From a virus: a stretch of DNA of 39,002 bases. How positions within the stretch are numbered: position 1 is the first letter of the stretch; every line of letters starts with the position of its first letter. The notes below the pieces were generated by a model. It saw only the letters and a list, made by a program, of their open reading frames with translations, was not told the DNA's origin and ran no database searches. Of this stretch, positions 7,765-39,002 are shown piece after piece. The DNA lies in the IMG/VR virus record IMGVR_UViG_3300010883_000113, positions 1 to 39,002 of that record. One strand, 5' to 3'. Position numbers and translations under genes: made by a program.

Positions 7765-7838
7765 AGGGGATAGGTGTTATGGTAGCACAACTGGCTCCAA
7801 CCCAGTAAGCGAGGGTTCGACTCCTTCATCCTCTGCCA
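7765..7838 (+). tRNA. tRNA-Trp (anticodon CCA), with encoded CCA end
   Basis: A complete 74-nt cloverleaf. Acceptor AGGGGAT pairs with ATCCTCT (one G-U), discriminator G73, then encoded CCA. The D stem is GTGT/GCAC with loop TATGGTA. The anticodon stem ACTGG/CCAGT is perfect, with loop CTCCAAC giving anticodon CCA at 34-36. The variable loop is AAGC, and the T arm GAGGG/CCTTC carries loop TTCGACT. By this alignment positions 8 and 14 are A and U, not the usual U and A. It lies between the oxygenase and the late promoter for the baseplate hub gene. Confidence 0.93.
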
Positions 7839-25000: not shown

Positions 25001-25479
25001 TATTTACTGTTGCAAATCAGATTAATAATATAGACTCATCTTCAGATGTTTTTCCAACAAGTAAGTATATACCTATGACTGCTCCAGATGGAGATCACAA
25101 TGCATGTATATATGTAACTAAAAAAGTTGTATTAGAAAATCCAGCAACTGCTATTAAAGTTATATTTTCTGGTCACAAACACTCATCAGCTGAGATTAAG
25201 GTGTTGTTTAAGACTTTGAGAACAGATGATGCTTCTGATTTTGATGATTTAAGTTATACATTTATGAATACGGATGGAAGTCCAGATACCTCAGTCGATA
25301 GCTCAGCTGATAAATCAGATTTTCAAGAATACAAATATACTGCTGGTGTAACAGATGATGGTATTGGAACTCCATTAGACTCCTTTATACAATTTGCAAT
25401 TAAAATTGTAATTCAAGGTACAAACGCTGCAGAACCCCCTAGACTAAAAGACTTTAGGGCGATTGCGTTGTCGACATGA
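19072..25479 (+). CDS. giant DUF4815-type virion protein (2135 aa)
   Basis: The N-terminus (YFDDFDNNANYNRVLFRPGFAV fold region, here in part YFDDFDNNANYNRVLFRPG; QARELTTLQSILQDQIEQHG) is the DUF4815 domain of large T4-like marine-phage tail proteins that occupy the gp9/gp10 position. Repeats of the form GEKIT-x(3)-S-x-A-x-A follow (about 520-580 and 820-880), with one LNGTD-like repeat at N600. An Asp-rich linker lies at about 1504-1532, and then DPLAQTFVV begins a beta domain with PAWVELRNVVNGFPGPK and PVYLQPGVEYCFVARTAS, usual in this family. The likely role is connecting baseplate to fibres. Its stop overlaps the next ATG. Confidence 0.82.
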   Translation: MAQITDLNVAPYFDDFDNNANYNRVLFRPGFAVQARELTTLQSILQDQIEQHGNHMFKEGAMVIPGQFSLISGIEFVRLENTFSSETINIDQYLNVSTPTLITGSTSGVSAKVIGVTPASTTENPILHVQYQDSGTNGSDVRFLAGENITSNTSITHTTSYAASVASGQVQTGTGHVSTGFAANVEEGVYYVRGNFVRCAKQRIIIDFNNTRANARIGFNISETVETPETETTLLDNATGSSNFAAKGAHRLKITLSLVQLPLGSTNDSSFIQLSEVVNGVQVMEARFTDYSIVGESMARRTFDESGNYTVRPFQFTLSECLDTVIKGKDFAGAFQGKKLTNDGVVPSSDLLTLNISSGKAYIKGFELEKISATFRDIKKSRDFQTVNAGITNFQIGNFAKVTNMFGTPDITFVSGESTAYKTITLFDESISTRGTANGNPVGAARPRSIQYRSGTAGNTDAVYDVFLWDVRPFTKVTLSGTPSPLLTGNHSNGGVKVTGVTSGATGFVFSAHTTADLLYLTNVIGAFTLGEKITASDSQETGQIVENVGNADLTITDFTTHKFADARSLVMEDADAGQNFTADLVLEVVKGDVSQLTMNGTDANSTDENDNIVLEADNSTTLALEGRKESKLFDSDKNVSIFKLPKKGIKTLLTASNAGATDSQLTIRRQFIGVTNSSGAISFAAGSNETFLGFAEKDYTLSVLTAGSGGSANQGDIVSISGKISGTGTPSITITDNSLLASAAKVKLTATILKTSVNQRIKTTNLMKSVLVSTGVTDAYGTRPGDAEISLGRADVFKVVAVYDSESTSVNAITPEISLTLIDGSFTRGEKITGSSSIARARIIDTSSPMSYVLTDGFGAKDFIVGDIITGQSSGATATVASVTAGSKVITSNYVLDTGQRDNYYDIARIIRKPGVAKPLGKLRIVFDFFAHSAGQFFSVDSYTDVAGQMGYANIPSYTATRVDPDEPEPSGVFPLQDVFDFRPTVENIAGTSTTLATDDEITAKSFDFFHRQFDGTGSSPIDSPKPDSLLQADFEFFLGKRASLYMNELGNFNLVEGVSSEEPKLPKEHTNAMKLADFIIPPFTFSPQDVGINRYNTQRFTMEDIGRLQKRVENVEYYTALSLLERDAESFEITDSNGLNRFKSGFIVDNFGGHKVGDVQHKDYNIAMDMQLNEARPKAIMRNAGLMESVSSDTARSAVGYQKTGDLITLPYTEVEFAKQQYATRTENLWPHYQASYVGNVTLTPSSDEWFETEVAPPLIINVDGNFDTVLAENKNSIGTVWNAWETQWSGVIGTTITNTNTGNGTVVRSVQTTRTDLTRTGLRTDVVEKIDEESQGSRIISRALIPFVRSRKISFVAECMKPKTRVYPFFDNVAVTNFTTPLEAGFTDTDVVAAGGALLTDGAGTVKGTFEIPDYKFVGQEGVPKFRTGELEFRLTSSDDNTKTGVSTFAVAMYYAMGILNTEQESIIATRNAEVVRTNAKQDTTTISSTTSQAIIRTQSDDNDDNDSGDGTSSDGAGDDTDDDGDDDDPLAQTFVVAQGGLGKNGGFCTSVELFFSSKDANLPAWVELRNVVNGFPGPKILPFGRKVLPSNEINVDNVTGAAATKFTFPSPVYLQPGVEYCFVARTASLEYNAWISRLGEIDVSGSNRLVSKQPSLGVLFKSQNNRAWSPSVTEDLKFTAYRAKFDINSQGVVTLQNKALDELRLGRNPITLTNSSAVVQIAHADHGMYSTSNNVTLSNISSGISTTLVTTISATDNTLALTSNTGFPTSGTVHLKIANEILSGTISGTSVTSITRAQDGTTASAHTASTIIELYMIQSVPLTELNKTHTAIANIEMNSYTITSTTSASISGDSDTAEVGGTAVKASENYRYELVKPMVSYMEMEKTNLTTKIRSTTGTSPSGNETPFVTQTSSTAESLELNENFDFDSCKIVASQVNETNEMSSNKSVFLDVTISSLTDVLSPVIDTERMSLFTVANQINNIDSSSDVFPTSKYIPMTAPDGDHNACIYVTKKVVLENPATAIKVIFSGHKHSSAEIKVLFKTLRTDDASDFDDLSYTFMNTDGSPDTSVDSSADKSDFQEYKYTAGVTDDGIGTPLDSFIQFAIKIVIQGTNAAEPPRLKDFRAIALST

Positions 25480-26953: not shown

Positions 26954-27943
26954 ATGACATCAAGAGTACCTTTATATTACGATTCTGGATCGATCAGAGA
27001 ATTTACTGCTGATGAAATTACTGAGTATGTAACTCAAACCATTTTTCAATATGGTTCTGCTCCTACATCTGTGTTAACGGTTGTTTCTAGTAATGGAGCA
27101 GGGATTGCAGCATTATCTGATACTCGTACACAAGCAGGTGCAGCTTCAAATAGTGATGGTAACGAAAGTGGAACTGTGGCAGCTGCCGACTTTGTGATAG
27201 AGAGTTCTACTGCTGAACCAGCAACCGTAACTGTTGCATATGATAAAATTAATTTAGCACATACAAGTATAACGGTACAGGCAGATACAAACAGTATTAA
27301 ATTTCCAGTATACTATGATGGAAGTGGTGGAATTAGGTCTATGTCACAAACTGATTTCTTAGATACATTTGGAAAGCCTGCAATCGATTTATTAGTTGCT
27401 GGAACAGAGAGTGCAAGTACAGCGGGAACATATTCAATTAGTACATCAGCAACTGCTACTAATTATACTGAAGTATCTGATGGTTCTGGTGGCACAGCTA
27501 TATTCTTAGATACAAGAGCAAATGTTGGTGCATATGCAGCTAGTGGTATCCCAGAGACACTTGATCAACCAACTACAATTACATCATATTATTTACATCG
27601 TAGAAATCCAGTTGATAATAGTCCTTCTAAAGATATGTTGTATATCGATGGCGATAGTAATTTAAAAGAGTTTACGGAGGGTGAAATAGAAGCATTATTA
27701 GCCAATGGTGTTCGACATTTAGCTTCAGATGCCTCTGCTGGTTATAAGATTGGATATAGTATGGCAACAAGTGGAACTGGAAGCACTCGTGGTTCTGCTG
27801 TAGTTAATACAAAACTAGATGGTTCTGGTAACTATCAAACACGAAATGTTGGTTCTGGAAGTAACCAATATAGATCGCAAGAATTTCCTAATGGTACAGC
27901 ACAAACTATTACGACATCAAACTTACGAATTACAAAATCATAA
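26954..27943 (+). CDS. virion structural protein with three internal repeats (329 aa)
   Basis: The sequence contains three copies of a motif spaced about 110 residues apart: PLYYDSGSIREFTADEI (from residue 6), PVYYDGSGGIRSMSQTDF (from 118) and MLYIDGDSNLKEFTEGEI (from 228). These point to three related beta/alpha domains arisen by duplication. The intervening parts are Ser/Thr/Ala-rich. No T4 equivalent is evident; similar short-repeat proteins occur near tail fibres in marine myoviruses. Role in the fibre or baseplate periphery is inferred from location. It starts 3 bp after the previous stop. Confidence 0.7.
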   Translation: MTSRVPLYYDSGSIREFTADEITEYVTQTIFQYGSAPTSVLTVVSSNGAGIAALSDTRTQAGAASNSDGNESGTVAAADFVIESSTAEPATVTVAYDKINLAHTSITVQADTNSIKFPVYYDGSGGIRSMSQTDFLDTFGKPAIDLLVAGTESASTAGTYSISTSATATNYTEVSDGSGGTAIFLDTRANVGAYAASGIPETLDQPTTITSYYLHRRNPVDNSPSKDMLYIDGDSNLKEFTEGEIEALLANGVRHLASDASAGYKIGYSMATSGTGSTRGSAVVNTKLDGSGNYQTRNVGSGSNQYRSQEFPNGTAQTITTSNLRITKS

Positions 27944-27963: not shown

Positions 27964-28518
27964 ATGGCTGCAATATTTACAAATAGGATCGTAGATGCTT
28001 TCTACACAAATCCAGAGTTAGATACAATAGAAGTTGTTTATGCTCAGGTTGTTCCAGGCGAAGATATGACAGGCATAGATGTCGAACGCTTAGGTGCATT
28101 TGACGTAAAAACTCGTCCAGTTTCACATTGGGTAACGGTTGATCCAGATGATTGGCAATATCAAGAATTAACTAAAGAAATTTCTATAGAAAGAATTGAT
28201 AACCGAACTATAGAAATTAACGAAGGTAATCGAACACGATTTGTAGAATCATTTCAAAGATATGCAGCTGAACAAGGTTGGAGTCAAAATCCAACGATGC
28301 CAGCTGAAATCGTTACAAGTAGTTTGGATGATTTAATTTTTAATTTTGATGAGAGTCATCAAGAATCTAAAGAAGAATTGTTTAAAATAAAATTAGCACT
28401 TTTTGAAAAGGATGCTGTAAAAAATTCAGATGATAAGAAAGTTAAAGCTGATATCCGTAAAGCAACTACTCCATTAGAAGTGTTATCAATTTACTATTCA
28501 TTGCTACCAAAGAACTAA
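27964..28518 (+). CDS. protein of unknown function, late (184 aa)
   Basis: A 184-aa soluble acidic protein with clear AGGAG before the ATG. The N-terminal half is beta-rich (IEVVYAQVVPGEDMTGIDVE; VSHWVTVDPDDWQYQEL) and the C-terminal half helical and charged (SHQESKEELFKIKLALFEKDAV; LEVLSIYYSLLPKN). No family is recognised. It is the last gene of the virion-type block and the first after the near-consensus late promoter, so either a virion protein or an assembly factor is possible. Confidence 0.7.
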   Translation: MAAIFTNRIVDAFYTNPELDTIEVVYAQVVPGEDMTGIDVERLGAFDVKTRPVSHWVTVDPDDWQYQELTKEISIERIDNRTIEINEGNRTRFVESFQRYAAEQGWSQNPTMPAEIVTSSLDDLIFNFDESHQESKEELFKIKLALFEKDAVKNSDDKKVKADIRKATTPLEVLSIYYSLLPKN

Positions 28519-28529
28519 GAATTTATAAA

Positions 28530-28634
28530 ATGAGTATGAAAATATTTATGTACAGACTACGCTTTTTCTTTTCTCGATTTAAAAAACATCGGCAATATGA
28601 AGAAAAAGGTTATATTTATGAGGATAAAGATTAA
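28530..28634 (+). CDS. 34-aa basic micropeptide
   Basis: ATG at 28530, stop TAA at 28632-28634, 3 bp before the glycosyltransferase ATG. The product begins MSMKIFMYRLRFFFSRFKKH, an amphipathic basic segment, and ends in an acidic tail (EEKGYIYEDKD). No strong Shine-Dalgarno is present. It could be a membrane-associated peptide, a coupling leader for the downstream genes or, speculatively, a substrate for the radical SAM enzymes. The call rests on the tight fit in the gap. Confidence 0.4.
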   Translation: MSMKIFMYRLRFFFSRFKKHRQYEEKGYIYEDKD

Positions 28635-28637
28635 AAT

Positions 28638-29372
28638 ATGCTAAATATATTATGTGTGAGGTGGGGCGATAAGTATGATCACACCTATGTTGACAAATTA
28701 TTAAAACAAGTGAAGAACAACTGTTCTGTTCCTTTTAAATTCTATTGTTTAACAGACAACCCCCAAACAGACTATGATATACCCCTACCTAATATTTGGG
28801 ATAAACATTATATTCCAGAGAGAAATGCTTTCTGGGCTTACCGTAAATGCTATATGTTTAATGAAATGCATTTTCCACAAATAGGTGGTGATAATTTTTT
28901 ATATCTTGATCTGGATATTCTTATACATCAAGACTTAAAATATTTTAATGATCTTCCATATGGTAAACCTTACATAGTTCGCGGGTGGTGGAATGATATA
29001 GAAAATTGTAGAAAAAACTTTGGGAAGATTAAATCTACTCCATTAAATTCTTCTGTAATAAAATGGAACAGGGGTGAATTACTTAGAGTATATAATGATA
29101 TTGAAAAAAATGCTGAAGTAATATTTTTTACATATCCTACTATAGATAATTATTTTAATCATGCATGGTATAATCCTTGGAAAGAAGATGAGGGATATCT
29201 CAGAGGTTATCCAAAGGGAGATATTTATTCTTGGTATAAAGGTAATGTTTTTCCAGATGATATGGACGCTTGGAAATTAAGAAAAGATCACAAAATATGT
29301 CTATTTAATAATAGTGCTAATGGCGGAGATGAACATATGTATGATATTGCTGAACTGGATCACCTATGGTAG
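28638..29372 (+). CDS. GT-A fold glycosyltransferase (paralogue 1)
   Basis: A 244-aa protein opening with a nucleotide-binding strand (MLNILCVRWGDKYDHTYVDKL, quoted in part as NILCVRWGDKY), and containing the D-x-D metal/sugar-nucleotide motif YLDLDILI (D91, D93). It resembles small GT8/GT32-like glycosyltransferases encoded by marine phages. A later NHAWYNPWKED and YSWYKGNVFP contribute the acceptor side. It should transfer a sugar from a nucleotide donor, on a phage protein or host glycan. The homologue at 34016 has the same opening (VAVRIGDKYGPEY) and DxD. It overlaps the next gene by 7 bp. Confidence 0.78.
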   Translation: MLNILCVRWGDKYDHTYVDKLLKQVKNNCSVPFKFYCLTDNPQTDYDIPLPNIWDKHYIPERNAFWAYRKCYMFNEMHFPQIGGDNFLYLDLDILIHQDLKYFNDLPYGKPYIVRGWWNDIENCRKNFGKIKSTPLNSSVIKWNRGELLRVYNDIEKNAEVIFFTYPTIDNYFNHAWYNPWKEDEGYLRGYPKGDIYSWYKGNVFPDDMDAWKLRKDHKICLFNNSANGGDEHMYDIAELDHLW

Positions 29373-30028
29373 ATCATCTAAAATTTACACCAAGTACATT
29401 AAAAGATTGGATGCGTTCTTGGAGAGAAATAATGAAAGAACGTCCTTGGGCTGCTGATCGTGTGGGAAATTCATTTACAGAATCTCAATTAATTGGTAAG
29501 ATGTGGATAGCTGAAGAACTTAAAAAAATAGGTGGAACTAAACATGTTGCTTTGCTTGGGGGGTGGTTTGCTCATTTTACATGCTCACTTTTATTTGAAG
29601 AGGTTGGAGTGTCTACTGTCACAAATTTTGAAATTGATCATGATGCACACTTTATTAGTTTTAAATTTAATCGAAGATATAAAGAAGAAAAAAAGTATAG
29701 GTCTATTAGAAGAAATGTTATGACAATTGGTTTGAGTGGAGTTGAAACTTTTGAGAAAGTAAAAACTACTGAACCTCAATGGGATGTTGTTATAAATACT
29801 TCATGTGAACATATGTTTCCAATGAGAAAATTTAGAGAATTAAATCCACAGCTGAAAGATTGTTTATATGTGTTACACTCAACAGATGACGATCAGTATG
29901 ACGATCATATTAATTGTGTTGGTTCTCCACAGGAATTGGCAGATCAAGCTAACATAACCGACATAAAATTTATGGGAGAAAAAGTTCTTCCTAATGGTAT
30001 GAGAAGATTTATGGTTATAGGGAGATAA
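29366..30028 (+). CDS. Rossmann-fold (methyltransferase-like) protein
   Basis: A 220-aa protein. Residues 60-66 (HVALLGG) and the acidic residue after strand 2 (VTNFEIDHDAHF, about 85-96) resemble class I SAM-binding motifs I and II. DVVINTSCEHM fits the strand-4 motif and a conserved signature (TSCEHM) of a methyltransferase-like family frequent in marine phages. The glycine pattern of motif I is shorter than usual (LLGGW), so SAM binding is likely but not certain. Overlaps the glycosyltransferase by 7 bp and precedes the oxygenase by 3 bp. Confidence 0.65.
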   Translation: MVDHLKFTPSTLKDWMRSWREIMKERPWAADRVGNSFTESQLIGKMWIAEELKKIGGTKHVALLGGWFAHFTCSLLFEEVGVSTVTNFEIDHDAHFISFKFNRRYKEEKKYRSIRRNVMTIGLSGVETFEKVKTTEPQWDVVINTSCEHMFPMRKFRELNPQLKDCLYVLHSTDDDQYDDHINCVGSPQELADQANITDIKFMGEKVLPNGMRRFMVIGR

Positions 30029-30031
30029 TTA

Positions 30032-30757
30032 ATGCCTAATAATAAGAAACAAGCAATTATAGATTGGTGTAGGGATCAAGATATTTGGTATCTCAAGATG
30101 GATTTAGAAATACCAGAAGTTTGTATTGCTGAAGCACAAAAAGTTTATGACGAAGGTTTCTTTGTAGAACATCGTTATGGAAATGGTGGTGCCGGTGAAT
30201 GGTGTTCAGCTGCTCTTCATAGTTTTGTTAAAAAAGGTGAAGATAATGAAATGGGTTGGTATCACACAAAGAACCCTAGTGGTCATGGTCTTACTGAAGA
30301 GAGTGTTACATGGGGTTGGACTGAGATAGCTGAAATTGCTCCAGAGACTAAGAGATGGCTAGAAGATTTTCCACATAAACAGTATAGGCGATGTAGATTT
30401 ATGTTGTTGAAACCAGACGGTAGAATAGACAGGCATAATGACTCTAATGCAAAGCGAGTAGCTGAGGGTAGAAAGCGTAATCTAGCAGCTGCAATTAACC
30501 TTGCGTTCTATCAACCAAAAAATTGTTATCTACGAAGAGCAGATACAAAAGAAGAACTTCCTTTTGAAAACTGTACAGGGTTTTGGTTTGATAATGGAGT
30601 AGACCATGAAGCTCACAATCAATCAGATGAAAATCGTTTTCATTTTATTATTCATGGTGGAGATAATAAAGCTCGAAATGAGTTGATGGAACGATCTATT
30701 GTAAAACAATTTGGTAAGGATGTTCTAAGGGAAATAGATGTACATTCCAACTCTTGA
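30032..30757 (+). CDS. aspartyl/asparaginyl beta-hydroxylase-like 2OG-Fe(II) oxygenase
   Basis: A 241-aa protein with the Asp/Asn hydroxylase pattern: RRCRFMLLKPDGRIDRHNDSN region containing H135-x-D137 (RHNDSN), a strand AAAINLAFYQPKNCYL, then FDNGVDHEAHNQSDENRFHF with distal His192 or His195 and Arg202 for 2-oxoglutarate. These enzymes hydroxylate Asp/Asn side chains in proteins or free amino acids; here the substrate may be a phage protein or sugar/amino acid made by the cluster. The last 20 bp overlap the radical SAM gene. Confidence 0.8.
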   Translation: MPNNKKQAIIDWCRDQDIWYLKMDLEIPEVCIAEAQKVYDEGFFVEHRYGNGGAGEWCSAALHSFVKKGEDNEMGWYHTKNPSGHGLTEESVTWGWTEIAEIAPETKRWLEDFPHKQYRRCRFMLLKPDGRIDRHNDSNAKRVAEGRKRNLAAAINLAFYQPKNCYLRRADTKEELPFENCTGFWFDNGVDHEAHNQSDENRFHFIIHGGDNKARNELMERSIVKQFGKDVLREIDVHSNS

Positions 30758-31349
30758 TATTGAAGGTGGATTTTACGATAAACCTATTAATTTAGATATT
30801 ACACACCGTTGTCCTTTGCAATGTCCAAGTTGCATTAGGCAAAAAAATAAATATATTAAAAACAATCCTAAAAACACAGATATATCTATAGCAAATTATC
30901 TAAAGATATTAAAAACTTTTTCTTATATAGAATTGAGTGGCCAGCAATCAGACCCATTATGCCATCCAGAAATAATAGAATTAATTTTTTTATCTCGTTA
31001 TAGAAAATTAGATATCCACACAGCTACATCTCACAAAAAAAAAGATTTTTATATAGAGGCTTTTGATACTAATCCAAATGCAACATGGATATTTGGATTG
31101 GATGGGTTACCAGCAGATAGCCACAAACATCGTGTAAATCAAAACGGCACACATCTATTTGAAATGATGCAGCTAGGTGTTGAGATGGGAATAAATGTTG
31201 TGTGGCAATATTTGGTATTTAATTACAATCAAAATAATATAGAAGAAGCAAGAGCTCTTGCGAAAGGAATGGAATTTAGATTATCTCTTTCTTCTCGTTG
31301 GGATGATCATTCCAAACACCTTAAACCAGATGAGGAATATTGTGCTTAG
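30738..31349 (+). CDS. radical SAM core protein (paralogue 1), without SPASM domain
   Basis: A 203-aa protein with the cluster motif C25-PLQ-C29-PS-C32 (ITHRCPLQCPSCIRQ), a modified GGEP-position motif (LSGQQSDPLCHPE) and a substrate-barrel motif IFGLDGLPADSHKHR. At 203 residues it covers only the partial barrel; the C-terminal Cys-rich domain found in SPASM enzymes is encoded by the next, overlapping gene. The start overlaps the oxygenase by 20 bp. It ends at TAG 31347-31349 directly after HLKPDEEYCA, equivalent to the KHLKPPE end of paralogue 2. Products likely act as a two-subunit enzyme. Substrate unknown. Confidence 0.83.
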   Translation: MYIPTLDIEGGFYDKPINLDITHRCPLQCPSCIRQKNKYIKNNPKNTDISIANYLKILKTFSYIELSGQQSDPLCHPEIIELIFLSRYRKLDIHTATSHKKKDFYIEAFDTNPNATWIFGLDGLPADSHKHRVNQNGTHLFEMMQLGVEMGINVVWQYLVFNYNQNNIEEARALAKGMEFRLSLSSRWDDHSKHLKPDEEYCA

Positions 31350-31632
31350 ACCTAGATGTATACATGATGGCCAATGCCTAGGACATTCAGCACAAGGATA
31401 TATTACACCATGTTGTCATATGGATTCTCATGATAGGTCGAGAGGCTATGCTTATGATATTTTTTACCAAGAAAAATTCAACATAAATAACAATAAAGAT
31501 ATAAAATCTATTACGCAATCTAAAGAGTGGATTGATTTTTATACAATGTTACAGGAAAGACCAGAAGACGCTCCTCCTATTTGTAAGAAAATCTGTGGAA
31601 ATAATAAAGAGGCAAGAGATATTTATGGATAG
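31330..31632 (+). CDS. stand-alone SPASM-like Fe-S protein (partner of radical SAM 1)
   Basis: A 100-aa protein from the ATG at 31330 (GTG at 31342 is possible; the frame is open upstream to 31258, which would overlap too far). It begins MRNIVLRPRC, and has a SPASM-type cysteine layout: RPRCIHDGQCLG, GYITPCCHMD, and PPICKKICG at the end. SPASM domains bind auxiliary 4Fe-4S clusters in radical SAM enzymes acting on peptides or sugars. Here the domain is a separate gene in a different frame overlapping the core gene by 20 bp. A sequencing error splitting one gene is possible, but the same split recurs at 35371. Confidence 0.75.
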   Translation: MRNIVLRPRCIHDGQCLGHSAQGYITPCCHMDSHDRSRGYAYDIFYQEKFNINNNKDIKSITQSKEWIDFYTMLQERPEDAPPICKKICGNNKEARDIYG

Positions 31633-32923
31633 TTTTGAAGAATTTGTTAAAGTCATAAGTTCCTATAATTCAAAGGTTAAAAGTCATAGATCATTATACA
31701 TTATAGTAAAACCTAGAGGCTGGGATTTCGGTATAGAAAAATCCTGTCAAACTACTTGGTATAATGTATCTGGTGGGCCTACAGGAAGTGGTACTGGTAA
31801 TCAAGTTATATTTTGTGAACCAAAAGAAGTATTCCAGACTTTAGTTAATAGTATGGCCAAACGTGCTATGATTGTTAGAGCTGGAATGGTCTTTGATATG
31901 ACACATAGTAATGAAGATGGTACTCCTAAAACTCCTATAACAAAATTCAAAAAATCTACTGCTTGGTGTAAAGGACATATTATTGCTCGTCCATTTGAAC
32001 AAGCATTTTTACACAAGCAACATATAGAGATAGATATTGTTCAATGGAAAAAAATTGGTTGTCCAAATATATTTCAAGAACAAAGATTTGCTGTTGGAGA
32101 TAAAAGCAATATAAATTATCATGATGATTATACACCTTATTGGATTGAATTTGTGGGCCTACCACGGATAGAAAACTTTGATAAGGATGACAGAAGGATG
32201 AAGGCTTACACTTATGATAGAGATTTTAATTCTGAGTGGAATAATATAGCTGAAAGTGAATATGGAGAATTTCCACAGGTACAAAGTGATAACAAATCAT
32301 ATGGATATTTTCAACGTCTAAACAGTAGAAACAGTAAAATGTTTTATGTTAATAATACTGAAACTTTAAAACGATTACCCCCTAAAGAGGAAAGCTTCGA
32401 TATAATATTCTCACCAACAGCTGGTTACATAACAGAAAAAATATGTCAGATGTATCAGCATAAGGGGGAAGTAATATTTTATGATTATTGTTTAGATAAT
32501 ATACAAATTAAAAAAGCAATTGTTGATATGAACATGACAGAAGAAGAAATAAACCAGTATATGAAATATCAAAACAAAGTACAAGCAATCACAAGCGTCT
32601 CCACTATGAGCTCTGAAACATTAGAAGAAGAATATGGTGATGGTAGACTTGCTCAACAATATATGATTAATAATTGTAAAATATCATATGAAGTGATAAA
32701 TATTATTAGTCCTAACTATAACACAATCCTAGAAAAAGTCAAAGGAAAAAAAGTATTATTTAATCATAGTAATATATTTGGGTTTAGTATGGCACACGCA
32801 CAATATACTTTGACACAACTAAATGCTTCTCATCAAGCTTTATATGATCTTCTGAGTAAATCAAAAAGTTTTTATATGAGGGGTACACGAGCAGATAAAA
32901 AGTGGGAGCTATTAAATGGATAA
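31625..32923 (+). CDS. protein of unknown function, tandem paralogue A (432 aa)
   Basis: The ATG at 31625 overlaps the SPASM gene by 8 bp and is preferred over the upstream start at 31532, which lies deep in that gene. The protein has an N-terminal Trp/Lys-rich part, then a Rossmann-like core with FDIIFSPTAGYITEK followed by EVIFYDYCLDNIQIKKAI, and a C-terminal block KVLFNHSNIFGFSMAHAQY. The next gene shares these three blocks, so the two arose by duplication. The pattern is reminiscent of NAD- or SAM-binding proteins, but the usual glycine-rich loop is not evident. No function is assigned. Confidence 0.72.
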   Translation: MDSFEEFVKVISSYNSKVKSHRSLYIIVKPRGWDFGIEKSCQTTWYNVSGGPTGSGTGNQVIFCEPKEVFQTLVNSMAKRAMIVRAGMVFDMTHSNEDGTPKTPITKFKKSTAWCKGHIIARPFEQAFLHKQHIEIDIVQWKKIGCPNIFQEQRFAVGDKSNINYHDDYTPYWIEFVGLPRIENFDKDDRRMKAYTYDRDFNSEWNNIAESEYGEFPQVQSDNKSYGYFQRLNSRNSKMFYVNNTETLKRLPPKEESFDIIFSPTAGYITEKICQMYQHKGEVIFYDYCLDNIQIKKAIVDMNMTEEEINQYMKYQNKVQAITSVSTMSSETLEEEYGDGRLAQQYMINNCKISYEVINIISPNYNTILEKVKGKKVLFNHSNIFGFSMAHAQYTLTQLNASHQALYDLLSKSKSFYMRGTRADKKWELLNG

Positions 32924-34019
32924 TTTTATAGAATATGGTGAGTATATTAAAAATAATTATAGGCCAAGAAAGCAATCCTTTTGTATATTAATATATTGTT
33001 ACAAAGATTTACCTTGGACAGAGGAAAATGAAAAAGCTATTCAAATGACTTGGTTTCGTTCTGTTTGTGCTCGAGGTAGCAGAGGAGGATATCCAGTTGA
33101 TTTTTGTTACAAAGAAGATGTATCCTTATGGTTATCAAAAACTAATTACAAAAATGTTATACTTTTAGAACTTGGAAGTATTTTTGATAACCAAGAGCTG
33201 AGCTCATCTTTTATGGTAGTATTTGAAAGATTTCTTAAATCAGAATATTGGTGTTTAGAAAATAACAGAATGACATTTGTTAAGGTAGATGAATTTCATA
33301 AATCTAACAAAACAGATATTTGGAAATGTCAAAAGAAAGATGATGATTATAAAATAAGTGGAGTATATCATATATGTAAAAGAGATGGTGATAATATTAA
33401 AAGCCAAAAGAGTTTGGCAGATATGTATCCAGAGGGAAAATTAAGAATATATTTTACATTAAATAATGAATATGGATATAACCAAAATATAAAACCTAAG
33501 AAGAAATTTTCAGATGTTGATACAATTATCGCACCAACTGCTGGATTTAATACTGAGGGATGGGCCAAACAATTTAAAGCAAAAAAGATAATATTCTATG
33601 ACGATGTACAGGAATTTATAGATATTAAAAAACATATTTTATTGTGGGGCCCTAGAACAGAAGATGATCTAATATATTTACAAAATAAGCTTAAACCACT
33701 ATTTCCTACGATTTTATTTAAAAATGCTTTATCTTTACCTATTGGTAAACAAACATCAATTGAAGAACAATTGGAAAATGCAAGATGGGCAGTAGAAAAT
33801 TGTGAAATTGAATATATAAAATTTGATATGATGAAAGATGATAAAAATAAATTACCACATGGAAAAAATATATTATTACATTTATCTAATATATTTTCTT
33901 TTTCTACTACTCATTTTAAGTGGGATTTACATTATATAAATAACAGGTGGGATATTATGGTCGATACTGATAGTCATATACAAGGAACGGATGTTTGGAA
34001 AAGAACAATTTTTAAATGA
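32916..34019 (+). CDS. protein of unknown function, tandem paralogue B (367 aa)
   Basis: It overlaps paralogue A by 8 bp. Shared blocks are VDTIIAPTAGFNTEG, KIIFYDDVQEFIDIKKHI and NILLHLSNIFSFSTTHF, in the same order as in A, plus an N-terminal strand ILIYCYKDLPWTEENEK. It is shorter than A (367 versus 432 aa), mainly in the N-terminal half. Cys-rich positions in A are not kept. Pairing of two diverged copies next to each other suggests a heterodimer or separate substrates. Its last 4 bp overlap the second glycosyltransferase. Confidence 0.72.
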   Translation: MDNFIEYGEYIKNNYRPRKQSFCILIYCYKDLPWTEENEKAIQMTWFRSVCARGSRGGYPVDFCYKEDVSLWLSKTNYKNVILLELGSIFDNQELSSSFMVVFERFLKSEYWCLENNRMTFVKVDEFHKSNKTDIWKCQKKDDDYKISGVYHICKRDGDNIKSQKSLADMYPEGKLRIYFTLNNEYGYNQNIKPKKKFSDVDTIIAPTAGFNTEGWAKQFKAKKIIFYDDVQEFIDIKKHILLWGPRTEDDLIYLQNKLKPLFPTILFKNALSLPIGKQTSIEEQLENARWAVENCEIEYIKFDMMKDDKNKLPHGKNILLHLSNIFSFSTTHFKWDLHYINNRWDIMVDTDSHIQGTDVWKRTIFK

Positions 34020-34720
34020 AAATAGTTGCAGTTAGAATAGGTGATAAGTATGGGCCAGAATATGAAACATACTTAGAATCAAAATTACCAGAACATGAAT
34101 TTATCTGGGTAAGGGAGGCATATCATCCAGAGGTAGTTCTACAATGGAATAAGATGTGGGGTATGCAGCTTGATATTGACGAACCTATATGTGTAATGGA
34201 TATTGATCTTCTTTTAGTAAATGATTATCAAAAGATATTTGATTATCCTGTAAAGCGTGGTCAATTTGTAGCCATGCCCGGCTGGTGGAGAGATACGGAT
34301 AAGGAAGGATATTCTATTAATGGGGGGTTCTTTAAATACTATCCAAAAGACACCAAATACATATACAATAAATTTATGTCAAATATTTATAAATGGCAAA
34401 GACATTATATAGAAAACAAAACAACTAAGGGCCCTGTCAATGGTGAACAGTATTTTGTAGAGGATTCTGTAAATGAAAGATTGGAGTTGGTTGTTCTTCC
34501 AGCTGCGTGGTTTACTCGTTGGGTTGTTAATGAAGATATTAATTATGGAAAGAGAATGAAAATGTGGGAAGTTCAAATGACCCAAAAGTATATGAGTGTA
34601 ACTGGCAATGATTATATATATCTGGGTGGTGAGTTTCATCCAGATATTAAATTAGTACATTTTACACACGGTCAAAATCTTCCACATGAATGGGCGAACT
34701 ATAATGACTATACTAGATAA
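34016..34720 (+). CDS. GT-A fold glycosyltransferase (paralogue 2)
   Basis: A 234-aa homologue of the enzyme at 28638: opening strand KIVAVRIGDKYGPEYETYL, and D-x-D in CVMDIDLLLV (D62, D64). GYSINGGFFKYYPKDTKYIY and WWRDTDKEGYSINGG carry conserved acceptor-side residues. It is probably a retaining or inverting sugar transferase of the small phage GT class; donor and acceptor are unknown. The 4-bp overlap with paralogue B and 17-bp overlap with radical SAM 2 keep it in the same translation train. Confidence 0.78.
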   Translation: MKIVAVRIGDKYGPEYETYLESKLPEHEFIWVREAYHPEVVLQWNKMWGMQLDIDEPICVMDIDLLLVNDYQKIFDYPVKRGQFVAMPGWWRDTDKEGYSINGGFFKYYPKDTKYIYNKFMSNIYKWQRHYIENKTTKGPVNGEQYFVEDSVNERLELVVLPAAWFTRWVVNEDINYGKRMKMWEVQMTQKYMSVTGNDYIYLGGEFHPDIKLVHFTHGQNLPHEWANYNDYTR

Positions 34721-35381
34721 TAAAGTATTTACGGAACGAAATAATATTAATATTGATATTACTTATAGATGTCCTTTAGCATGTTTATCGTGCATGAGAA
34801 AACGATATGTTGATAGAGGAAAGCCAATTGATGGTATAGATATGAGTATAGAATCATTTGAAAAGATAACAGATTTTTTTACAAGAATTAATTTTTGTGG
34901 TCAAGTATCTGATCCTACTGCCCATCCAAAATTTATTCAGTTTCTTGAAATTTGCAAAAGGAAGGGAAACGAAGTTGAAATACATAACGCTGCTTCTCAC
35001 CGATCTTTTGATTGGTATAAAAAAGCATTTCAAGCTTATCCAGAAGCTATTTGGGAATTTGGATTAGATGGATTACCAGAAGATAGTCACAATTATAGAA
35101 AGAACCAGAATGGGCCTAAACTCTGGGAAGTAATGAAGTGGGCTAGTGGTGAGGGATATTTAGTAGATTGGCAATGGATATACTTTATATATAATTATAG
35201 AGATGTTCCAAAAGGATATGAGATGGCTAAAGAACACAAAATTAATTTCATTACCGTTCATTCAGATCGTTGGGGGAAGACAATAAAACACTTAAAACCT
35301 CCAGAAGCAATCATGAAATGTAATGACGTATATGAAGTTATGAATTTATTAGAAAGTGGGTATATTGACAATGGCAGATGA
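34704..35381 (+). CDS. radical SAM core protein (paralogue 2), without SPASM domain
   Basis: A protein of 225 aa from the ATG at 34704 (the frame allows 34686, six codons longer; neither start has a clear Shine-Dalgarno). The motif is C23-PLA-C27-LS-C30 (ITYRCPLACLSCMRK) with a modified GGEP position (FCGQVSDPTAHPK) and FGLDGLPEDSHNYRKNQ. It aligns along its full length with the protein at 30738, including the end KTIKHLKPPE, after which a short extra segment leads to the stop. The SPASM-like partner begins 11 bp before this stop. Confidence 0.83.
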   Translation: MTILDNKVFTERNNINIDITYRCPLACLSCMRKRYVDRGKPIDGIDMSIESFEKITDFFTRINFCGQVSDPTAHPKFIQFLEICKRKGNEVEIHNAASHRSFDWYKKAFQAYPEAIWEFGLDGLPEDSHNYRKNQNGPKLWEVMKWASGEGYLVDWQWIYFIYNYRDVPKGYEMAKEHKINFITVHSDRWGKTIKHLKPPEAIMKCNDVYEVMNLLESGYIDNGR

Positions 35382-35679
35382 AAAAATACAACCAAAATGC
35401 ATGAATGGTGGGGGTGCTAAAGCTGCAGCATATAGCTCTTTAGGGTGGATGATGCCCTGTTGTTGGATAGACCCTAGAAGCAAAATTAATAAAGGTAGGA
35501 ATAATACTGGTTGGGAATCTGAAGTATTTCAAGCTATGTTTACTGAAGAATTAAAAGTAGAAAATGTAGATTGTGTGGAAGATATTGTATATTCAAAAGC
35601 TTGGCAAGACTTTGCTACTGCTCTTATTGAAGACCCTCATAGTTGTCCTACGAAATGTTGGCAAAAATGCAGTTCGTAA
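35371..35679 (+). CDS. stand-alone SPASM-like Fe-S protein (partner of radical SAM 2)
   Basis: A 102-aa protein from the ATG at 35371 (a GTG at 35356 is the alternative; either overlaps the core gene). The cysteine layout is IQPKCMNGGG, WMMPCCWIDPRSK, NVDCVED and SCPTKCWQKCSS, parallel to the partner at 31330: a P-(K/R)-C near the start, PCC in the middle, and paired Cys at the end, with the same DIVYSKAWQDF middle pattern (SITQSKEWIDF in the other). Auxiliary Fe-S binding in a two-subunit radical SAM enzyme is inferred. Confidence 0.75.
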   Translation: MADEKIQPKCMNGGGAKAAAYSSLGWMMPCCWIDPRSKINKGRNNTGWESEVFQAMFTEELKVENVDCVEDIVYSKAWQDFATALIEDPHSCPTKCWQKCSS

Positions 35680-36992
35680 ACAATAACCATAACAGACAAT
35701 TTAAAAAAATTATTAATCCTAACTGGAGTTTTTATATTTACGGTTACACAAACTTGTCCAATAAAGAAATCATCCACAGCTTATTGCATGAGAATAAATT
35801 TCCTTCAAGTATTAGAGGACAATTTGCGTTAGTATTTATTCGAGGAAAACAATGGTGGGCATGTGTAGATCATCTAGGAACAACAAATCTATTTTATACG
35901 GATGAGGTAATTTGTCCAGACTATTACGGTATACCCCAAAAAGGTATTAATACCAATACAATGATTGAACAGCAGCTTAAAATTTTGAAGAGACATACAG
36001 TTGGGCCTGGAACACTACATAATGATATATCTAGAGTTGAACCAGAAACCTATGTTAAAAATGGAGTTGTCACAAAATATATGAATTTGATTAATAATCC
36101 TACGGAAGAATTTAATTATGAAGTAGCATATGATTTATTTGTAAAGGCTGCATCTAGAGTTGATCTTTCTAATTGTAAGATATGTTTTAGTGGTGGTAAA
36201 GATAGTGCTTGGATAGCTATGTTTTTAAAACATCTTGGTCATGATCCAAAACTAATTCATATAACAAGTCCAAATGTAGAACTCACTTGGGATGATGAAG
36301 CTTGTGATTTATATAGAAAAGAATGTGGTTGGGAAATAGAAGATTATGTAGTAGAATATACTGGAGAAGTGACAGATGATGATTTTATATTTACTACATT
36401 TTGGAAAGAAAAGATTTTTCCTGTAAAGAGCCATGCAATGCATCCACACGGAGGATTTGCACTTTCTGGTGAAGTTAGTGAGGTGCAAGCTAAAGCTCAT
36501 ATTATTAGTCACTATGTAGAAAACATGAGAGGTAAAATTAATAATGAACATCTTATTAGTTATTACATGTATTTGGCATACACATTTAATAAAAATACGG
36601 TGCCAGAGTATGTACATTCTGTAACTTCTGAAATGTGGCAAAAAAATGAAGGTTATCAATATATTTTAAATTATTTCGACAATATTATAGCAACTAGTGA
36701 TAAACCAAATAAATATTATAAATTTTGGCATAAGGAGTTCTGTTCTGCTAGAATGTATGCTGAATCTCAAGATATGCGAAATGAATGGTTTAACCTATTT
36801 ACTGATTACGATGTATATAACTATCTTATGAATACAACCAAGCCACCTTATATGGGCCCACAAGTTGGTGGACAGGGGAAACCCAGGCTGTTTCTAATAG
36901 GAAGCAAGATGTTTTCTACATGGAGCGATATCTCTTGGAGATTTAAATCAACTGGCATGAATATACCAGCGAGGAATTTGATCAATGAATAA
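35667..36992 (+). CDS. asparagine-synthetase-like PP-loop enzyme with inactive glutaminase-like N-domain
   Basis: A 441-aa protein from the ATG at 35667 (ATG 35655 and TTG 35643 are alternatives). Residues about 15-110 resemble the N-terminal class II glutaminase domain of AsnB (RGQFALVFI; VDHLGTTNLFY), but no Cys follows the initiator Met, so glutamine hydrolysis should be lost. Residues about 150 onward carry the PP-loop ATP pyrophosphatase motif SGGKDS (175-180) and a synthetase-like helical domain. Homologues lacking Cys include beta-lactam synthetase and lasso-peptide cyclases, which form amide bonds from adenylated acids; AsnB-like enzymes also occur in polysaccharide clusters. Substrate not determinable. 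Overlaps the GNAT gene by 8 bp. Confidence 0.78.
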   Translation: MQFVNNNHNRQFKKIINPNWSFYIYGYTNLSNKEIIHSLLHENKFPSSIRGQFALVFIRGKQWWACVDHLGTTNLFYTDEVICPDYYGIPQKGINTNTMIEQQLKILKRHTVGPGTLHNDISRVEPETYVKNGVVTKYMNLINNPTEEFNYEVAYDLFVKAASRVDLSNCKICFSGGKDSAWIAMFLKHLGHDPKLIHITSPNVELTWDDEACDLYRKECGWEIEDYVVEYTGEVTDDDFIFTTFWKEKIFPVKSHAMHPHGGFALSGEVSEVQAKAHIISHYVENMRGKINNEHLISYYMYLAYTFNKNTVPEYVHSVTSEMWQKNEGYQYILNYFDNIIATSDKPNKYYKFWHKEFCSARMYAESQDMRNEWFNLFTDYDVYNYLMNTTKPPYMGPQVGGQGKPRLFLIGSKMFSTWSDISWRFKSTGMNIPARNLINE

Positions 36993-38040
36993 ATACTTAT
37001 TCCATGTAGTCTTACCCAATGAAGAACTAGCTGATTGGTTTTTGGAAAATTTTTATCCATATAGTATGAAGTTATTAGTAGTAACATGTGATGGGTCTTA
37101 TCCAAAAGACCCAGAACTAAGAAAAAATGTCTGGGAGAGTTTTGAAAATGATCCCAATATTCAGATTATGGTCTTTGGTTATTTACCCCCAGATATAAAC
37201 CCAAAAACTACAGCTGTGATTTATTTAAATGATTTATTACGATATGAATTGAGAAGTAAATTTAATTATGAGAATCAAGATTATGGAAAAAAACGACAAT
37301 TAAATTTAACTCCAATTAATTTTATGCATCTAGTGAGCATGATAGCAATAAACTTTCAAGCACGACCAGGGCCTGATTATGTTAATAAACCAGAGTATCG
37401 CAAGCAAACAACTTATGAAGTTCCTAGAAAAGATGTACTTAAAATGAATGTGTATAATCCTTACTTTTATAATGAAGAAAAAATGATAGTAGAGTATGAT
37501 TGGAAAGCAAAATTAATAGGTAAAGATTTAAATTTTAAATATGAATGTAAAGAAATAACTTTTGAAGAATGTTGTAAAGCATGGAAAATAATGTGGCCTG
37601 CTCGTAATCCTTTACCCACACACAGCACATGGAACTGGTCGATGGATGAATGTATTGTAGAACAACATCAATTAGCACCTTATATGATAGGAATTGATAA
37701 AGACATATATAATTATAATGCAACTTATTTTGGTGTTTATATTGATAACAAATTAGTGGGTGTTAATAGTGGTCATCAAACTAGTGAACAAACATATAGG
37801 TCTAGAGGCTTATGGGTTCACCCTAAATATAGAGGTAGAAAGATTGCAATTCTATTGTTGAAACATACCATAAAGGCTTCTAACGGTTTATATGCATGGA
37901 CATGTCCTCGCAAGGAGAGTGAGTATGCATACAGGGCGGTTGGATTTAAGAAAAGAAGTGATTATTATGATAAACCACATTTTAAGGAGGGCACATGCTG
38001 TTTTTCTGTGAGAGAACCAGATGATATATCCGAAGTGTAA
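36985..38040 (+). CDS. two-domain protein with C-terminal GNAT acetyltransferase
   Basis: A 351-aa protein. Residues 1-180 form an unrecognised alpha/beta domain (KLLVVTCDGSYPKDPELRK; AVIYLNDLLRYELRSK). Residues about 190-345 are a GNAT fold: the acetyl-CoA motif A is GLWVHPKYRGRKIAILLL (R283-G-R-K-I-A288), followed by GLYAWTCPRKESEYAYRAVGFKKR with the usual Y-x(3)-GF end. GNATs acetylate amines of sugars, proteins or small molecules; acetylation of an amino sugar would suit the glycosyltransferases nearby. The last 20 bp overlap the third SPASM-like gene. Confidence 0.78.
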   Translation: MNKYLFHVVLPNEELADWFLENFYPYSMKLLVVTCDGSYPKDPELRKNVWESFENDPNIQIMVFGYLPPDINPKTTAVIYLNDLLRYELRSKFNYENQDYGKKRQLNLTPINFMHLVSMIAINFQARPGPDYVNKPEYRKQTTYEVPRKDVLKMNVYNPYFYNEEKMIVEYDWKAKLIGKDLNFKYECKEITFEECCKAWKIMWPARNPLPTHSTWNWSMDECIVEQHQLAPYMIGIDKDIYNYNATYFGVYIDNKLVGVNSGHQTSEQTYRSRGLWVHPKYRGRKIAILLLKHTIKASNGLYAWTCPRKESEYAYRAVGFKKRSDYYDKPHFKEGTCCFSVREPDDISEV

Positions 38041-38341
38041 AGGGTTTGGAAAATTATACGTTACTGCAACTAATAAAGTAAGACCTTGTTGTTGGCTTAA
38101 TGAACACTCAGATTCAAAAGTATTTGACGAAGATGACGATTATGATTTATCAGTAACTTCTCTACCAGAAGTAATGAATAATATAGGTGAGTGGATTGAT
38201 CATCTCTCTCAACATCAAGACCCCATACTGCCATCTTGTGTAATGAGTTGCAGTAATCCACTTGTGAATAGGTTTCACCATAAAACTGGCAAACCTGTTG
38301 GTGAAACTGGAAACTCCAACCAAAATAACGAAGTTTTTTAA
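38021..38341 (+). CDS. stand-alone SPASM-like Fe-S protein (third copy, orphan)
   Basis: A 106-aa protein whose start is the ATG at 38021. The layout is YPKCKGFGKL, KVRPCCWLNEHSD, a middle helix SLPEVMNNIGEWIDHLS, and SCVMSCSN, matching the two SPASM-like proteins at 31330 and 35371. Unlike them it is not preceded by a radical SAM core; it follows the GNAT gene, and a core gene begins 11 bp downstream. It may serve that core, or one upstream, or remain after loss of its own core. The C-terminal tail (GKPVGETGNSNQNNEVF) is polar and probably disordered. Confidence 0.72.
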   Translation: MIYPKCKGFGKLYVTATNKVRPCCWLNEHSDSKVFDEDDDYDLSVTSLPEVMNNIGEWIDHLSQHQDPILPSCVMSCSNPLVNRFHHKTGKPVGETGNSNQNNEVF

Positions 38342-38352
38342 GAAAGAAATAA

Positions 38353-39002
38353 ATGAAATTTTGGCCTTCGCATAATAACATGGGTGATATTGAACCACAA
38401 AAATCAATCCATCTGGAGTTGAGTAGAAGATGTATATTAGAATGTCCTAAATGTGCAAGGACAAGAAATAAAGGTAATTACCTAATTGGAGATTTAGATT
38501 ATGATATTTTTGTTAATATAGTAAAAACTTTAGACGCTAAAAATATTAATATGTGTGGTAATATGGGTGACCCAATATATCATCATAGATTTATAGATAT
38601 TGTTAAATTTCTTGATAAAGAAAAAATATTTTGGACATGTCGTACAAATGGAAGCGGTAAAAAAATGGAATGGTGGAATAAAGTATATAATGCTTATGAT
38701 GATATTGGAATGAAATATCCTAGCTCATGGATATTTGGAGTTGATGGATTGGAAAATACTAGCAACCTATATAGAGTTAACCAAAAGTGGCAAGAGTCTT
38801 TTGATGCTATGAAGCTTGGGGTTAAGTTAGGTAAAAAAATTGTTTGGCAATGGATACCCTTTTCATTTAATGAACATCAAATAGAAGAAGCTAAACAAAT
38901 GGCTAAAGATAATGGAATAATTTTTTTGATAGTTTTAAGTTCAAGGTTTAACAAAAATGACCCACTAAAACCCTCAGAAAGATGGCGACCCAAAAAGAAA
39001 GA
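38353..39002 (+). CDS. radical SAM core protein (paralogue 3), cut by the window edge
   Basis: An ATG at 38353 opens a frame that stays open to the end of the window (216 complete codons, no stop). The motif is C27-ILE-C31-PK-C34 (LSRRCILECPKCARTR), then MCGNMGDPIYHHRF at the GGEP position and WIFGVDGLENTSNLYRVNQ, all paralogous to the proteins at 30738 and 34704, including VWQWIPFSFNEHQIEEAKQMA and the end ...PLKPSERW. The stop and any following SPASM-like gene lie beyond 39002. AGAAAGAAATAA upstream gives no strong Shine-Dalgarno. Confidence 0.8.
   Translation, partial: MKFWPSHNNMGDIEPQKSIHLELSRRCILECPKCARTRNKGNYLIGDLDYDIFVNIVKTLDAKNINMCGNMGDPIYHHRFIDIVKFLDKEKIFWTCRTNGSGKKMEWWNKVYNAYDDIGMKYPSSWIFGVDGLENTSNLYRVNQKWQESFDAMKLGVKLGKKIVWQWIPFSFNEHQIEEAKQMAKDNGIIFLIVLSSRFNKNDPLKPSERWRPKKK

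Follow-up and report, generated by a model that had tools for sequence, protein, structure and literature searches.

The window considered here is a whole virus contig of 39 kb (39,002 nucleotides (nt); IMG/VR record IMGVR_UViG_3300010883_000113, positions 1 to 39,002) that is assigned to a T4-like marine myovirus, and the element of interest is a train of 14 genes at 28638-39002 that includes three radical S-adenosylmethionine (radical SAM) cores with a CxxxCxxC motif plus three separate SPASM-like proteins. An initial annotation of this DNA gave the gene order correctly for all 14, and the enzymes that they encode, as judged from sequence comparisons, probably decorate the virus's own tail protein. 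The genes of the train and those just ahead of it are given below, where families that recur among related loci have numbers with the prefix c, and the loci themselves have numbers with the prefix L.

26954-27943, + strand: tail protein c6, candidate substrate or partner, 43% to phage Mosig, 25.5% Ser plus Thr, no Cys; co-occurs with glycosyltransferase (GT) and methyltransferase-fold (MT) genes
27964-28518, + strand: tail-associated protein c7, 184 amino acids (aa); of 40 dereplicated c6 loci that extend at least 6 kb downstream, 38 have it after c6
28530-28634, + strand: unconserved 34-aa open reading frame (ORF), MSMKIFMYRLRFFFSRFKKHRQYEEKGYIYEDKD, in the sole real gap, ending just before gt1
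28638-29372, + strand: gt1, GT-A/GT8-like glycosyltransferase 1, family c2 (PHROG glycosyltransferase, 1.3e-6)
29366-30028, + strand: methyltransferase/aminopropyltransferase-fold enzyme (MT), family c3, with an NTSCEHM motif (family profile against spermidine synthase structures, 2.4e-5)
30032-30757, + strand: AspH, Asp/Asn beta-hydroxylase-like 2-oxoglutarate (2OG) oxygenase, family c29 (PF05118, 9.7e-10, above the curated cut-off)
30738-31349, + strand: radical SAM core 1, with CxxxCxxC (PF04055, 9.5e-6, below cut-off)
31330-31632, + strand: SPASM-like protein 1, starting at its own ATG (31330) and overlapping core 1 by 20 nt, with the family Cys pattern (PF13186, 0.0048, below cut-off)
31625-32923, + strand: paralogue A (ParA), family c34, present in 33 of 80 c6 loci; no significant fold match
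32916-34019, + strand: paralogue B, ~28% identical to ParA, seen only in the window among the loci compared
34016-34720, + strand: gt2, glycosyltransferase 2, family c2 (family hidden Markov model (HMM), 4.9e-72)
34686-35381 (alternative start 34704), + strand: radical SAM core 2, 64% to L007 (PF04055, 6.9e-6, below cut-off)
35371-35679, + strand: SPASM-like protein 2, own ATG, 11-nt overlap, recognized by its family HMM and Cys pattern and without a Pfam match
35667-36992, + strand: AsnB-like PP-loop enzyme carrying SGGKDS, its N-terminal domain degenerate (TIGR01536, 7.7e-5, far below cut-off)
36985-38040, + strand: GNAT acetyltransferase with a 180-aa N-terminal extension (PF13508, 1.7e-8, above the curated cut-off)
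38021-38341, + strand: SPASM-like protein 3, upstream of core 3, an order also seen in other loci (family HMM)
38353-39002, + strand: radical SAM core 3, without a stop, cut by the record end at 39002 (PF04055, 2.8e-4, below cut-off)

The initial annotation had described this train as an unbroken run of overlapping genes directly behind the tail genes. Eleven of its 13 junctions do overlap, by 4-35 nt, and the remaining two are gaps of 3 and 11 nt, while ~120 nt, holding the unconserved 34-aa ORF, intervene between the end of the last tail gene (28518) and gt1 (28638). Improved start positions were obtained for SPASM-like protein 1 (31330), ParA (31625), SPASM-like protein 2 (35371) and the AsnB-like protein (35667). 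The suggestion of late expression found no backing in the window, where the T4 late-promoter-like motif TATAAATA is not enriched (9 seen versus 7.0 expected), and a scan for sigma-70 promoters and terminators also gave no excess.

The radical SAM cores score 26.3, 26.8 and 21.5 bits (cores 1, 2 and 3; E 9.5e-6 to 2.8e-4) against a curated PF04055 cut-off of 29.5 bits, and the cysteines of the CxxxCxxC motif (Cys25, Cys29 and Cys32) are invariant in an alignment of 19 cores. A scan of viral contigs with the single core 2 protein gave no match and profile scans were needed to find relatives, with the core profile yielding 309 loci of which 80 were kept. When 98 distinct cores were compared, a separate SPASM-like gene was found directly downstream of 61, a SPASM part fused to a GT accompanied 5, SPASM lay upstream of 6, and 13 were fused to it; another 9 have no adjacent SPASM (for the most part these lie outside the main clade and are long single-chain or Campylobacter-phage-like proteins) and 4 are at contig ends. 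Nearly all split and fused cores fall in one clade of 86 rows (SH-aLRT 99) of a quick tree with some long branches, and this clade contains ~12 natural single-chain fusions of core and SPASM, with at least five changes between the split and fused states.

The SPASM-like assignments of the initial annotation were upheld. Five Cys and one Trp are invariant among 55 distinct proteins of this family and 29 of 47 relatives match Pfam SPASM at E<=0.01, that of L033 scoring above the cut-off. Within the window, SPASM-like proteins 2 and 3 have no Pfam SPASM match and protein 1 reaches 0.0048, and a search of PDB sequences with the family profile gave no match. The first SPASM half-motif, CX9-15GX4C, is present (C10-X14-G25-X4-C30 in SPASM-like protein 2), its Cys residues being invariant across the family and its Gly nearly so; the second half, CX2CX5CX3C, and the final Cys, which go with two auxiliary clusters, are not kept, and only C96-X3-C100 is conserved there. 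The pattern CX14GX4CC...CX3C that results would suffice for one extra 4Fe-4S cluster, and for one at most.

Because natural fusions join these same two parts, there is strong evidence that the core and the SPASM-like protein would form one enzyme divided over two genes. An AlphaFold model of the fused relative in L017 (pLDDT 89.6, pTM 0.89) has as its nearest folds BlsE (2.1e-10), a sugar-nucleoside radical SAM enzyme, along with SuiB, EpeE, MoaA (6.1e-7), SkfB, PqqE and anSME. The two ORFs overlap by 4-98 nt in various loci, so a programmed frameshift could join them into one fused protein, and a split of this kind might also be produced by sequencing error. Frameshifting is unlikely because the overlaps use both relative phases (lengths of 4 and 31 nt in one, and of 8, 11, 14 and 20 nt in the other), the SPASM genes have their own start codons, and SPASM lies upstream of the core in six pairs; in addition, another gene intervenes between core and SPASM in L086, and the split state is present in the genome of a cultured isolate, Pelagibacter phage Mosig. 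On phase, gene order, start codons and isolate data, a frameshift or artefact origin of the split was therefore rejected as exceedingly improbable.

Fusions also involve other members of the train. SPASM-GT fusions were found in L033/L034/L038/L066, L059, L085 and L090, with at least two origins, and these proteins match the GT HMM at E 1e-33 to 1e-67 and the SPASM HMM at E ~1e-20 to 1e-23. In the closest backbone relatives of the window, L108 (13531-15945) and L110 (17541-19928), the AsnB-like and GNAT proteins are fused into a single product of 795-804 aa that is 32-35% identical to the two window proteins over both parts. At the level of sequence, both kinds of fusion tie neighbouring genes of the train to each other. 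The first GT of the L110/L188 record (G438:C1:30241-30945) has two in-frame stops and looks broken.

Among the remaining enzymes, the family c2 glycosyltransferases have invariant D91 and D93 residues and a weak similarity to GT8. The SGGKDS motif reported for the PP-loop protein is present, as are the CxxxCxxC motifs. AsnB-type amide formation, which had been suggested for this protein, is not borne out by its weak similarity to the AsnB profile (21.9 bits versus a TIGR01536 cut-off of 267); it begins MSYEMLAKMQFVNN, without an N-terminal Cys, and has neither the catalytic N-terminal Cys nor the full profile of asparagine synthetase B. A single-protein scan of viral contigs with the AsnB-like protein gave no match, no AsnB relatives were found among cultured phages, and PP-loop proteins of other families (c17, c23) occur near core-SPASM pairs. 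For ParA, the structural model has a pLDDT of 69 and gives just weak methyltransferase and GlyE-like hints, and a fold search returned no match below E 0.001. It was also observed that in L010, L017, L037 and L040 core-SPASM pairs lie beside terminase small-subunit genes, often with PP-loop c23 and far from the tail island, and that in L008, L025 and L071 a 102-107 aa protein, by eye a putative IscA/HesB A-type Fe-S carrier, precedes the core-SPASM pair near baseplate genes.

The phage backbone helps to place this train. Its gp6 is 50% identical to that of OM43 phage Melnitz, 46% to that of Pelagibacter phage Mosig and 44% to that of HTVC008M, and a VrlC-like giant tail protein (19072-25479, + strand), a homologue of HTVC008M VrlC and Melnitz gene 166, forms the left border of the so-called host recognition cluster. 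In pelagimyophages this cluster fills the region from VrlC to the neck genes and contains glycosyltransferases and radical SAM cassettes (Zaragoza-Solas et al., 2020; PMC7029224). Because the gene at 19072-25479 is VrlC, the train probably lies in this VrlC-to-neck slot; the record stops at 39002, ahead of any neck gene, and the neck does follow in relatives such as L020, L112 and L118. The same slot contains tail genes in Melnitz and HTVC008M, plus 2OG oxygenases in HTVC008M, and a radical SAM train is absent from its annotation in these two phages. In Mosig, a core/SPASM pair adjoins homologues of the window's tail genes.

Loci sampled independently by c6 (479 found, best 80 kept, in 52 groups) indicate how much of the train is conserved. 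The 40 dereplicated c6 loci that continue for at least 6 kb downstream contain GT2 in 36 cases, MT in 37, AspH in 24, ParA in 20, a NodU-like carbamoyltransferase in 19, an N-twitch radical SAM protein in 11 and a radical SAM core in 7; therefore, GT and MT are the constant part of the island and radical SAM pairs one of several exchangeable inserts. The order c7-GT-MT is present in 28 of the 52 c6 groups, many of which are incomplete (AspH in 24, ParA in 21, a second GT in 19), and the order AspH-ParA-GT-GNAT-neck in 9 of the 52. The recurring order is thus tail protein, GT, MT, AspH, radical SAM or carbamoyltransferase inserts, ParA, GT, GNAT and neck, and the inserts of relatives include NodU-type carbamoyltransferases, SGNH-like proteins and N-terminal-twitch radical SAM enzymes. 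Independent phage contigs repeat this arrangement for relatives of the cores, the GTs, MT, AspH and ParA, so the train is more than a chance assembly.

This island is also linked to one tail protein. In a search of 50,697 phage records, the sole match to c6 was its Mosig homologue, QOI69061.1 (43%), and among cultured phages Mosig is alone in matching c6 and this MT family. Records were also sampled by VrlC (best 80 hits kept), giving 34 dereplicated records that extend 5 kb or more past VrlC; these records are fragments, and related ones are not fully independent, which applies to the counts that follow. GT genes lie within 10.5 kb in 7 of the 9 records with c6 and in 0 of the 25 without it (p=6.7e-6), and a whole-record search for GT2 plus MT found them in 5 of 9 versus 0 of 25 (p=4.5e-4).

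Homologues outside phages are few. A search of 84,980 bacterial and archaeal species gave 13 loci only, most of them phage contigs as judged by their neighbours, and within the Hyphomicrobiales 2 of 397 genomes match, so the core-SPASM clade is almost confined to phages. Two Hyphomicrobiales metagenome-assembled genomes (MAGs) each contain a lone core-SPASM pair on a chromosome contig with housekeeping genes beside it (L094:7971-8923 and L095:7947-8914); the L095 pair is beside guaB/guaA-like genes, and no neighbours are common to the two loci. In MAG contigs L099, L100 and L101, more divergent fused radical SAM-SPASM genes occur in trains with N_Twi_rSAM proteins. The proposal that these are auxiliary metabolic genes that generally boost host metabolism during infection can draw on Campylobacter phages CP220 and CPt10, whose similar radical SAM and GT modules were so interpreted (PMC2853527) and whose cores are 23-26% identical to those of the window. 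Set against the scarcity of equivalents in the genomes examined, both in the one order (2/397) and overall (13 loci in 84,980 species, mostly phage contigs), and the ties of these genes to a tail gene instead of metabolic genes, such a role is very improbable.

Membrane-like segments are absent from the train proteins (the largest Kyte-Doolittle mean is 1.24), and among neighbouring proteins of at least 90 aa only 17 of 653 exceed a Kyte-Doolittle value of 1.9; given the lack of such segments in the train, the acceptor is probably cytoplasmic. A host lipopolysaccharide (LPS) operon was rejected as the source of these genes, since there is no membrane protein, no bacterial counterpart has the same order and the bacterial matches are almost all phage contigs; together with the order kept in related phages, this agrees with the dedicated phage island that had been proposed. 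These data also bear on the main rival explanation, in which the enzymes change the LPS or surface glycan of the infected cell and bring about superinfection exclusion, and which may take the form of LPS-core modification at the inner membrane face. This is how the same cluster has been read before, with O-chain change favoured and GT8-like enzymes named as the commonest GTs of pelagimyophages (Zaragoza-Solas et al., 2020; PMC7029224). Related islands hold a DegT aminotransferase, a NodU carbamoyltransferase and an epimerase, which likewise speaks for surface remodelling. However, the train has no flippase, lipid-linked GT, polymerase or any other membrane protein, few of the neighbours (the 17 of 653 above) are hydrophobic enough, the island goes with a single tail protein and is missing from sister phages that lack c6, and it lies in the structural region, not among early genes. 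Surface remodelling is on balance considered rather unlikely.

A third alternative is a pathway for a ribosomally synthesized and post-translationally modified peptide (RiPP) or a small molecule, with a diffusible product such as an inhibitor of rivals. The folds nearest to the fused relative include the peptide-modifying enzymes SuiB, SkfB and EpeE, the AsnB-like ligase and GNAT might serve such a pathway, and the unconserved 34-aa ORF precedes gt1. On the other hand, no PqqD recognition domain was found in 34 related records, no small ORF is conserved near the cores, and the 34-aa ORF at 28530-28634 has no relative in the loci or in phages; the train thus has neither the precursor peptide nor the recognition domain of a RiPP cluster, and no exporter or protease was found in it. 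A peptide pathway is improbable, in agreement with the initial annotation's remark that no precursor peptide was apparent. Among the acceptors that it had listed for a biosynthetic or decoration pathway, virion protein is favoured by the tail-protein linkage, and a peptide product is disfavoured by the lack of PqqD and of a conserved small ORF.

Taken together, the soluble train, the c6 linkage and the position among structural genes make decoration of a virion tail protein the best reading. We tentatively propose, with a little less than even confidence, that the island is a cytoplasmic module for glycosylation, hydroxylation and radical tailoring of a phage tail protein. In this scheme, the soluble GT-A enzymes gt1 and gt2 would add sugar to a tail protein, most likely the Ser/Thr-rich c6, and the MT-fold enzyme, AspH-like oxygenase, ParA and GNAT could elaborate the sugar or side chain. 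The split radical SAM enzymes would use the core as a TIM barrel and the SPASM-like protein as the source of an auxiliary 4Fe-4S cluster that also closes the active site, and the AsnB-like/GNAT pair might activate and cap an acyl or amide group. Tailoring units inside the island would be exchangeable, and the likely outcome would be a tail with a rapidly changing chemical coat, through which host recognition is altered or recognition by receptors or defences is evaded. A more specific version, in which the phage builds a glycan on its own tail protein and tailors it by the split radical SAM enzyme, with the SPASM-like partner (sometimes GT-fused) acting as a substrate-recruiting subunit, is unlikely. 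The genes, split pairing, fusions, conserved order and co-occurrence with c6 are observed, and from them we infer the acceptor, chemistry and benefit of the island. To our knowledge, no earlier case of radical-chemistry decoration of a virion is known.

Several points weigh against tail-protein decoration. LPS core synthesis, which likewise takes place on the cytoplasmic side, commonly employs GT8-like enzymes. L211 contains c6 and a neck gene, without GT or MT, and as c6 and GT/MT are physically linked, co-inheritance alone could give their association. Pairs of core and SPASM are also found well away from c6 and GTs, near terminase, beside baseplate genes and alone on the two Hyphomicrobiales chromosomes, and physical contact between core and SPASM would follow from the fusions by inference.

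Elsewhere in the window there is a tRNA-Trp (cca) gene at 7765-7838 and a fourth radical SAM gene at 2348-3391, of MoaA/viperin-like type with its own C-terminal Cys cluster. The best matches of the latter are viperin-like, MoaA and W_rSAM models, all sub-threshold, and it groups loosely with one gene of Campylobacter phage CP220 and one of L007.

A natural, almost phage-confined family of split enzymes makes the role of auxiliary clusters testable by mixing partners, and the module is already present in a cultured phage, Mosig. Because of the link to a tail protein, the vague term 'host recognition cluster' can be replaced by a claim open to testing, namely that the virions of abundant marine phages are modified by the phages themselves; if true, this matters for host range and for the arms races between phages and their SAR11 and OM43 hosts.

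Islands of this kind are already known (PMC7029224), as are phage radical SAM clusters (PMC2853527; PMC5332604), 12 radical SAM genes having been reported in a single T4-like genome (PMC5332604). The open-access literature, an incomplete sample, gave no report of split radical SAM/SPASM or stand-alone SPASM proteins, of SPASM-GT or AsnB-GNAT fusions, or of the conserved skeleton together with a tail-protein link. The train resembles the pelagimyophage host recognition cluster in its probable slot, in its occurrence in T4-like marine phages, and in its tail genes and glycosyltransferases, whereas the available parts of that account make no mention of a split core and SPASM, of the GT-MT-AspH-ParA-GT-GNAT skeleton or of the c6 link (Zaragoza-Solas et al., 2020; PMC7029224). 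The Campylobacter Firehammervirus phages CP220 and CPt10 are likewise T4-related and have, close to structural genes, an exchangeable module of several radical SAM genes plus nucleotide-sugar transferases, but their radical SAM genes are unsplit, are 23-26% identical and have other partners, such as an amidinotransferase (PMC2853527). N_Twi_rSAM proteins (NF033640) occur in the same islands (cluster c11, 6.6e-91) and have a SPASM-like part ahead of the core, as in the SPASM3-core 3 pair; unlike the window proteins, which do not match this model, they are single chains of ~400 aa. Finally, the radical SAM-SPASM enzymes PqqE, anSME, SuiB, SkfB and EpeE, together with BlsE, share the predicted fold of the fused relative, the CxxxCxxC motif and an auxiliary domain that starts with CX9-15GX4C, but the core and SPASM-like part, which share one chain in the SPASM subfamily, are separate in the window and the second SPASM half is reduced to CX3C.

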